Positions 47,638 to 48,870 of a stretch of 64,000 nucleotides of DNA are shown here, piece after piece. Numbering within the stretch: the first letter of the stretch is position 1; the number at the start of each line of letters is the position of its first letter. The DNA lies in contig JACQYS010000022.1 of assembly GCA_016208105.1 (NCBI GenBank), positions 62,001-126,000 on the forward strand. Reading direction: 5' to 3'. The notes under the pieces were generated by a model, which saw only the letters and a program-made list of their open reading frames with translations, searched no databases and was not told the DNA's origin. Source of the stretch: Desulfovibrio sp. Lineage in GTDB: Bacteria > Desulfobacterota > Desulfovibrionia > Desulfovibrionales > Desulfovibrionaceae. Made by a program: the position numbers and the translations under genes.

Positions 47638-48264
47638 TCAGGCTGGAGGGGCGTCCACGTCCCGGTGTCTGATCATGGCTCTGGTTTGGAAGGTGCGAAC
47701 CGTCTCCGCCAGTGGCAGCCCAACCACATTCGTGTATGACCCATCAACCCTGGCGATCATGAAGGCTCCCAGCCCCTGGATGGCGTAGCCGCCAGCCTTG
47801 TCCATGGGTTCGCCGGTGGCCACGTAGGCGGCGATGGCTTCTTCCGAAAGCCTCGCGAAGCTTACCTTGGAGGCCACGGCCTCTTCCCAGATCGTCTGCC
47901 CGTCCGGCCCGATGAGCACGCAGCCCGTGACCACCGTGTGCTCGCGCCCGGAGAGCATGGCCAGCATGCGTTTGGCGTCTTCCACATCCGTGGGTTTGCC
48001 CAGGATGAATTCGCCAACAGCCACTACGGTATCAGCTCCCAGGACGAACGATCCCGGGTGTCCCCAGGCCACGTCCCTGGCCTTCAGCCGGGCCATGCGC
48101 AGGGCGTAGCCGCCCGGGGTTTCGCCCGAGTCGGCCGGGGGTTCGTCCACTGTGGAGGGGATGATGCGAAACGATATGCCGGTGGAGCCAAGCAGTTCGC
48201 TGCGCCTGGGCGAAGCCGAGGCCAGGATGATGTCCGCTGATTCCTTGAATGCTCCAATGCCCAC
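47638..48264 (-). CDS. maf: Maf-family nucleoside triphosphate pyrophosphatase
   Basis: A 208-residue house-cleaning nucleotide hydrolase. ILASASPRRSELL at the N-terminus, VLGADTVV and GKPTDVEDAKRML are the family motifs, with KAGGYAIQG in the C-terminal half. Members hydrolyse modified or canonical NTPs. The start is GTG at 48264 with GAGGAG five bases upstream. Confidence 0.92.
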   Translation of the reverse strand: MGIGAFKESADIILASASPRRSELLGSTGISFRIIPSTVDEPPADSGETPGGYALRMARLKARDVAWGHPGSFVLGADTVVAVGEFILGKPTDVEDAKRMLAMLSGREHTVVTGCVLIGPDGQTIWEEAVASKVSFARLSEEAIAAYVATGEPMDKAGGYAIQGLGAFMIARVDGSYTNVVGLPLAETVRTFQTRAMIRHRDVDAPPA

Positions 48265-48350
48265 GAATGCTCCTCGGATCTCTATTCTTATGCGCGCTCA
48301 TTTCCCCGGATGGCACATCCAGGATCATTAAGCCCGTAATATATGGGATT

Positions 48351-48385
48351 CCAAAGGGACTTCGTCCCTTTGGCCGCCGGAGGCC
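48351..48385. repeat. Extragenic palindrome, copy C
   Basis: A perfect 9-bp stem (CCAAAGGGA at 48351-48359 with 48365-48373) is followed by GGCCGCCGGAGGC, the same tail as copy D at 53784-53795. Confidence 0.7.
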
Positions 48386-48463
48386 TTCCCTTTCCACCCC
48401 GGCACCGCCGTCTGGCGCGTCCACTCAAAAAGCTAGCCCGGCCCCGCCCCGGGGTCAACTTCC

Positions 48464-48693
48464 TAGCAGCCTGCCCAAAAACTCCCGCTGGCGGCGTTGC
48501 CGCTCAAAAGTCAAACCTTCGCGTATGTCAAATACGCTTGATCAGCCCCCGTCCTGGGGGCTGCCCCTACGGGTAACGCCTGGGCGTTGCCTCAAAACGC
48601 TGTCCTGCGTTTTGGTCAGCCTTGACTTTCTCCCGCGCCTTGCCAGCTGGTCTTTGGAACAGGCTGCGATGATTGACTCTTACAACAGGCTGC
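48464..48693. repeat. Multi-branched palindromic element upstream of glyA
   Basis: Nested inverted repeats enclose four hairpins. Outer arms: GCAGCCTG (48466-48473) with CAGGCTGC (48660-48667, repeated at 48686-48693); CTGGC (48488) with GCCAG (48642); AAAGTCAA (48507-48514) with TTGACTTT (48622-48629). Inner hairpins lie at 48521-48537, 48543-48563, 48572-48591 and 48593-48614. No open frame with a ribosome binding site is present. It looks like a dispersed intergenic repeat or a structured RNA rather than a gene. Confidence 0.65.
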
Positions 48694-48751
48694 AAGCTTC
48701 CATCTTGACGCCTCCCCAGAGGCGGGCTATCTCCCAAACGCCTTACCACAT

Positions 48752-48832
48752 CCGTTTCGCGTGACTGGCGAGAAACGTGGGCAACCACGGGGGAGCGCGA
48801 AACCAAGCTTTAGCCGCTCGCCTGGGCTGCAT
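48752..48832 (+). promoter_or_regulatory. ZTP (pfl-motif) riboswitch upstream of glyA
   Basis: The stretch carries the conserved pfl features: CGTGACTGGCG at 48761-48771, a P1 stem GTTTCGCG (48755-48762) with CGCGAAAC (48797-48804), a GTGG-GCAA-CCAC hairpin (48778-48789), GGGGGAGCG, and the 3' conserved CCGCTCGCCTGGGC (48815-48828). pfl RNAs bind ZTP/ZMP, signals of 10-formyl-THF shortage, and typically control glyA, folD or purine genes. The 3' domain ends about 40 bases before the ATG with AAGGAGG in between, so translational or transcriptional control of glyA is expected. Confidence 0.9.
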
Positions 48833-48870
48833 CGTGCGCGATGCCAACCTTCCTACCTAAGGAGGAGCCC

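Follow-up and report, generated by a model that had tools for sequence, protein, structure and literature searches.

A folded region between maf and a riboswitch upstream of glyA consists of nested inverted repeats that enclose several hairpins. It lies in the window analysed here, a stretch of 64,000 nucleotides from Desulfovibrio sp. (assembly GCA_016208105.1, contig JACQYS010000022.1, positions 62,001 to 126,000 of the forward strand). A preliminary description, made from the sequence, offered three readings: a non-autonomous mobile element, a structured RNA or a part of the glyA leader.

Structure of the Element and Its Locus

Since maf is encoded on the minus strand and glyA on the plus strand, the element occupies a divergent intergenic region. 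The nested inverted repeats, the four hairpins that they enclose and the two right-end copies of CAGGCTGC, 26 bases apart from start to start, were all found where the preliminary description had placed them (Table 1). Besides the outer repeats, of which the left arm is of the CAGCCTG type, and the inner pair AAAGTCAA and TTGACTTT, CTGGC/GCCAG forms a further inverted repeat pair, and the enclosed hairpins are GCGTAT..ATACGC, CAGCCCCC..GGGGGCTG, GGTAACGCC..GGCGTTGCC and CAAAACGC..GCGTTTTG. The claim that this structure goes beyond chance is borne out by folding: for a 281-nt segment the DNA folding energy is -64.7 kcal/mol, while dinucleotide shuffles give -42.2 ± 3.6 kcal/mol (z = -6.3), and none of 200 shuffles folded as well. 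The reading frames that cross the element are mechanical only.

The layout of the family consists of a 4-bp target duplication, the left inverted end CAGCCTG, a folded body, the right inverted end CAACAGGCTG and the second copy of the target duplication, with terminal inverted repeats (CAGCCTG... and ...CAGGCTG) present at both ends. The body folds as a near-palindrome of 128 nt, its left end being paired with a second, internal copy of the right end. Of the two CAGGCTG copies, the inner is an arm of this hairpin and the outer serves as right terminal repeat, located 24-26 nt past the end of the core in copies with a recognisable right end.

Table 1. Coordinates of the element and of neighbouring features in the window.
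Feature	Position	Strand	Basis or remark
maf	47638-48264	-	
Inferred -35 box TTGACC of the divergent maf promoter	48453-48458	-	GGTCAAC kept in three relatives
Element, refined bounds	48467-48692		226 bases, flanked by CTAG and CAAG
Left target-site duplication CTAG	48463-48466	+	Aligned with copies whose two flanking 4-mers are identical
Match to covariance model R1 (128-nt core, split by the 77-nt cassette)	48463-48667	+	92.5 bits, E = 1.8e-23
Left arm GCAGCCTG	48466-48473		Pairs with CAGGCTGC at 48660-48667, repeated at 48686-48693
Left terminal inverted repeat CAGCCTGCCCAAAAACTCC	48467-48485	+	Family consensus CAGCCTGTTGAAAAACTCC; insertion sequence of G138 CAGCGTGTTGAAAAACTCC
Inverted repeat AAAGTCAA	48507-48514		Inverted partner TTGACTTT at 48622-48629
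Long-form hairpin cassette, two hairpins with GTCCT loops, absent from short copies	48540-48616	+	Common to the three long copies of this genome
GTCCT cassettes in long copies of two families	48540-48616 (window); L251, L253, L282		Stems unrelated
Inner CAGGCTGC, the 3' arm that pairs with the left end to close the main hairpin	48660-48667	+	Covariation with the left end, seen in different lineages
Right terminal inverted repeat CAACAGGCTG	48683-48692	+	Followed by the duplicated 4-mer; spacing from core end
Right target-site duplication CAAG (from CTAG, one base changed)	48693-48696	+	Placed by the right repeat
Inferred glyA promoter TTGACG-17 nt-TATCTC	48705-48733	+	Aligned with TTGAC(G/C)-17-TACAT(C/G) in relatives L171-L173
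ZMP/ZTP riboswitch aptamer, outside the element	48751-48834	+	RF01750, 68.9 bits; also in four empty-site relatives
glyA	from about 48841 or 48871	+	

Distribution of the Family

The preliminary description had made its reading depend on further copies and on covariation in homologous regions, and both have been found, the copies in the genome itself as well as in its relatives. This Fundidesulfovibrio genome contains about 13 near-complete cores in addition to fragments; three copies are long (the window copy, L002 and L003) and about ten are short, with query positions 10-85 joined directly to 162-241 and the internal module absent. From 24 aligned cores a covariance model of 128 positions (R1) was built, which detected the core in 24 of 39 relatives. 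Of 297 genomes of the class 118 had a match, and in a sample of 297 genomes from the whole phylum the number was 44. Congeners and other Desulfovibrionales carry tens of copies per genome, the true number being about half the count of R1 matches because the palindromic core also matches its reverse strand.

Two particular arrangements have been observed: five core copies stand in tandem in one genome (L225 of G027, 1501-2231; spacing about 151 nt), and in G031, which belongs to another family of the same order, runs of N inside two element copies (L250, L254), either assembly gaps or withheld stretches, mimic the long form. No match to the element was present in the plasmid collection, the core pattern was not found in viral contigs, and neither the element nor the diverse copies tested reached an Rfam gathering score; a weak match to RsmY (10 bits, cut-off 57) was taken as chance. 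Among the open-access papers searched, those on bacterial miniature inverted-repeat transposable elements (MITEs) and terminator-like repeats do not describe this family, for which an ISfinder entry may exist.

Target Duplications and Empty Sites

The flank comparison proposed in the preliminary description revealed matched 4-bp duplications of the type NTAN throughout the family. They are clearest in G031, where many copies are near-identical and the identical flank pairs include TTAG, ATAA, CTAT, TTAT, ATAT, TTAC and CTAG: when the right end was located blind, from its repeat alone, the left and right 4-mers were identical in 19 of 28 copies (shuffled mean 1.9, maximum 7). The corresponding test in Fundidesulfovibrio, with identical 4-mers in 13 of 40 copies (6.3 on average after shuffling, at most 13), is weaker, because CTAG targets dominate and many right ends are decayed. 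The other two long copies of this genome are flanked by CTAA/CTAA and GTAA/GTAA, and the CTAG/CAAG pair of the window copy is identical at three of four bases, one base having changed.

The same locus, with maf, ZTP riboswitch and glyA, is devoid of the element in four congeners (L171-L174, from G005, G006, G003 and G002, respectively). In G005 the distance from GGTCAAC to TTGACG is 15 nt, and taking 48467-48692 plus one 4-mer out of the window sequence leaves 15 nt there as well; this equality indicates that the element entered between two back-to-back -35-like boxes. A consensus promoter scan detected neither the maf nor the glyA promoter, and both have been inferred from conservation.

The position of the inferred glyA promoter, which starts 8 nt to the right of the duplication and adjoins the riboswitch, bears on the proposal that the element belongs to the glyA leader or to the expression platform of the ZTP riboswitch, the only Rfam match in the window. 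Such a role would suit an element located just upstream of the ZTP aptamer. However, four relatives possess the same aptamer and gene order without the element, element and aptamer are separated by a conserved promoter-like TTGAC-17-TACAT/TATC, and the element is also found at many unrelated loci. With the window copy upstream of the inferred promoter, the leader reading of the preliminary description is not supported, and it is regarded as extremely improbable.

A second dispersed repeat is located at 48344-48384 of the window, where a hairpin (CCAAAGGGAC..GTCCCTTTGG) is followed by CCGCCGGAGGC; it is also present at the orthologous site in L171-L173. With at most one mismatch allowed, there are 75 occurrences of CCTTTGGCCGCCGGAGGC in this genome, 48-156 in each of six congeners and 40 in G138; in the other genomes tried it is rare.

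A Probable Mobiliser

The starting points in the search for a mobiliser were contig ends of G002 that finish with TTTTTCAACACGCTG followed by TTAA, and a broken relic detected in G006. When the class was searched at the protein level, a transposase gene was identified in 14 copies in the relative G138, of which 13 have an open frame of 469 amino acids. These 13 full-length copies start with CAGCGTGTTGAAAAACTCCGCC and end with CAGCTTTTTGCAACGGCCTG, nearly all having matched 4-bp flanks, and the left-end consensus of the family is identical to the G138 insertion sequence at 18 of 19 bases. The transposase contains the domains DUF772 and DDE_Tnp_1; its best NCBIfam model is that of IS1182 (NF033551), with 161.9 bits below a cut-off of 270, so the protein is named IS1182-like only. 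Relics with similar ends have been found in the congeners G001 and G002.

A full-length search found the IS1182-like transposase neither in the element's own genome nor in G031, where the youngest copies are found, so that the link to the mobiliser is drawn only from the shared ends and the duplication in relatives. Mobilisation in trans by an IS1182-like insertion sequence is likely on these grounds: its DDE transposase would have recognised the same ends, made the same duplication and moved the element, and we infer that the mobiliser has since been lost from this genome. Right-end matches not belonging to the listed copies led to eight sites of G031 that were fetched, and at none of them was an autonomous element found; several of these sites are additional or truncated copies, two of which have runs of N that imitate a long form. 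The DUF772 transposases of G003 and G006 were rejected as mobilisers, as they are unrelated insertions whose ends are different.

Short imperfect palindromes, many intergenic copies and a tandem array in one genome are also what would be seen in a REP/REPIN-type element moved by a RAYT (REP-associated tyrosine transposase). Tyrosine HUH transposition, however, is not known to produce a target duplication, and the matched 4-bp duplications, together with inverted ends held in common with a DDE insertion sequence, make an origin of this kind very improbable. The mobile-element reading of the preliminary description is well supported: copies are dispersed, their ends are inverted, the duplications match, orthologous sites stand empty in relatives and an insertion sequence ends in the same way. 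The window element is very probably a long-form copy of a MITE, inserted at CTAG and, as seems likely, mobilised in trans by an IS1182-like insertion sequence; it entered the gap of about 15 bp between the inferred back-to-back promoters of maf and of the ZTP riboswitch and glyA. The part of this explanation that concerns termination, discussed below, is less certain.

Conservation of the Core Fold

Covariation was assessed in 21 copies chosen across lineages and aligned without structure, against a hand-specified fold of 43 pairs. Double changes are present at 30 of the 43 pairs, with 105 double-change cells against 32 ± 4 in shuffled data, and the signal collapses when the fold is slid by one column. 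Left end and inner right arm change together, as CAGCC/GGCTG, CAGGC/GCCTG or CAGTC/GACTG. The most conserved part of the core, namely GCGTTGC and GCGCCTTGC, is largely unpaired in the hand-specified fold, while RNAalifold pairs part of these stretches. Kinship among the sequences can inflate shuffle tests and template-switch correction could add compensatory changes; the covariation is therefore strong evidence of a maintained fold and does not on its own establish a host function. Moreover, in five orthologous pairs from G001 and G004 the core, by inspection, is not obviously slower-evolving than its surroundings, which counts against a strong present-day constraint per site.

Bacterial quasi-palindromes undergo correction by template switching, and the covariation might be a by-product of this process, or of conversion between copies, rather than the outcome of selection on the fold. 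The likeness of copies within a genome and the lack of obvious extra constraint in the orthologous pairs would agree with such an origin. Correction would nevertheless erase asymmetric internal loops, yet these loops are the most conserved part in the 21 divergent copies, and for this reason a purely mutational source is considered unlikely.

Association With Stop Codons and Resemblance to Terminators

Genomic contexts were counted in a non-random set of up to about 20 best-scoring copies per genome, with a gene caller trained on the known genes of the window. In this set 52 of 70 Fundidesulfovibrio copies start no more than 6 nt from the stop codon of an upstream gene in the same direction; a convergent gene ends at the right boundary in 14 of the 70, and only two, the window copy included, lie between divergent genes. 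The boundary stops are TAG in 39 cases, TAA in 8 and TGA in 4, as expected if the NTAN target sets the insertion site. Between tandem genes the sense orientation prevails over the antisense (30 versus 6, p = 7e-5; 26 versus 5 without recognised orthologues). In G031 the stop contacts are 5 on the left and 3 on the right for copies with intact ends, and 7 and 0 for decayed copies, counts that, small as they are, suggest a bias growing with age. In two insertions between convergent genes (L060, L105), the two copies of the 4-bp target provide the stop codons of both flanking genes.

A fold-and-T-run terminator at or below -8 kcal/mol is predicted for 55 of 66 short Fundidesulfovibrio copies in the sense orientation and for 47 in the antisense; at the same threshold it is predicted for 3 of 66 control segments and for 4 of 38 copies of G031. 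Most short copies resemble intrinsic terminators, and their conserved hairpin may end transcription, the core of A-tract, hairpin and T-tract being one that could act as a terminator. Beside stop codons, the hairpin may have been tolerated or kept, with less certainty than the insertion itself, since TAA and TAG fit NTAN, the duplication regenerates the stop and the core could terminate transcription. In the window copy the same scan gives no hairpin followed by a T run, and this copy is probably an ordinary passenger which has lost its T-tract in a divergent-promoter context.

These data could also be read the other way round, with the family as primarily a functional structured RNA or terminator kept at gene ends, whose mobility is incidental or long past. 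The phylum-wide fold with its compensatory changes, the conserved and largely unpaired GCGTTGC and GCGCCTTGC, the frequent start at stop codons, the sense bias between tandem genes and the excess of hairpins with T runs over controls all fit this possibility. It is nonetheless doubtful, given that matched duplications, near-identical young copies and empty sites indicate recent mobility, that the young copies of G031 are without clear sense bias, that the window copy sits between promoters without a T run, and that NTAN targeting alone puts insertions at TAG and TAA stops. The structured RNA envisaged in the preliminary description may still apply to the family, on account of the strong core covariation and the many copies just after stops, and is set aside for the window copy, which sits between two divergent promoters.

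A Hairpin Cassette in the Long Form

In the window copy, which is a rare long form, the cassette of 77 nt contains two GTCCT-loop hairpins with a third between them, and a CCC..GGG segment can form a fourth. At least three copies of G031 carry a cassette in which the same GTCCT loops stand at the same spacing (51-53 nt) and the middle hairpin is CCCT..GGG; compared with the window cassette, stems and insertion point differ and the orientation is opposite. A two-hairpin filter applied to about 0.9 Mb of fetched loci was passed by these long copies only (control motifs, 0 of 8), and about 0.8 Mb more of both genomes contained no GTCCT-hairpin double outside the element. Read on the opposite strand, the loops are AGGAC and recall the GGA loops of CsrA type, an analogy to be taken as a lead only. 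An origin of short from long copies by simple slippage was rejected, the direct repeats being 74 nt apart against a length difference of 77 nt.

A more ambitious proposal, put forward tentatively, is that these are phylum-wide, structurally constrained mobile gene-end elements that, by targeting NTAN, would insert at TAA or TAG stops and rebuild them, and whose fold would be selected for serving the host as a transcript 3' end. The cassette present in some lineages, with its two GTCCT-loop hairpins about 52 nt apart and stems free to vary, would then have a separate function, possibly the binding of a protein.

Comparison With Known Systems

The family is more interesting than the window copy, because its fold extends across the phylum, its copies tend to lie at stop codons and some of them contain a nested cassette. 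A dense intergenic repeat of sulfate reducers is hereby explained and tied to a probable mobiliser, and a testable route from transposon to gene-end signal is outlined, through stop-codon target choice, regeneration of the stop by duplication and biased retention. Furthermore, MITE hairpins can show RNA-like covariation, a warning that is relevant when functional RNAs are called by covariation.

Like other bacterial MITEs (Correia elements, RUP, Nezha, MITEAba12), the element is short and gene-free, with inverted ends that match those of an insertion sequence, a target duplication and a high folding potential; it differs from them in a core fold and internal loop kept phylum-wide with compensatory changes, in its NTAN target and in the strong association with stop codons in Fundidesulfovibrio. 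The SPRITEs of S. pneumoniae look like Rho-independent terminators, are overrepresented close to the 3' ends of genes and have been proposed as co-opted terminators, and BOX elements of the same species often provide stop codons (PMC3049150); the likeness to both is drawn without a claim of sequence relation, and in the present family the target duplication regenerates the stop and the distribution is phylum-wide. QMITE2 of Coxiella burnetii shares a stable stem structure and, in places, a position at a gene end; its host is a different one, and the description consulted mentions neither an NTAN duplication nor an IS1182-like partner (PMC5896051). Finally, ISPse1 of the IS1182 family measures 1653 bp, with a 4-bp duplication and 16-bp ends (PMC3281130); the probable mobiliser agrees with IS1182 insertion sequences in its DUF772 and DDE transposase and its 4-bp duplication, whereas the MITE has the ends alone in common with them, its body not being a deletion product of the insertion sequence.
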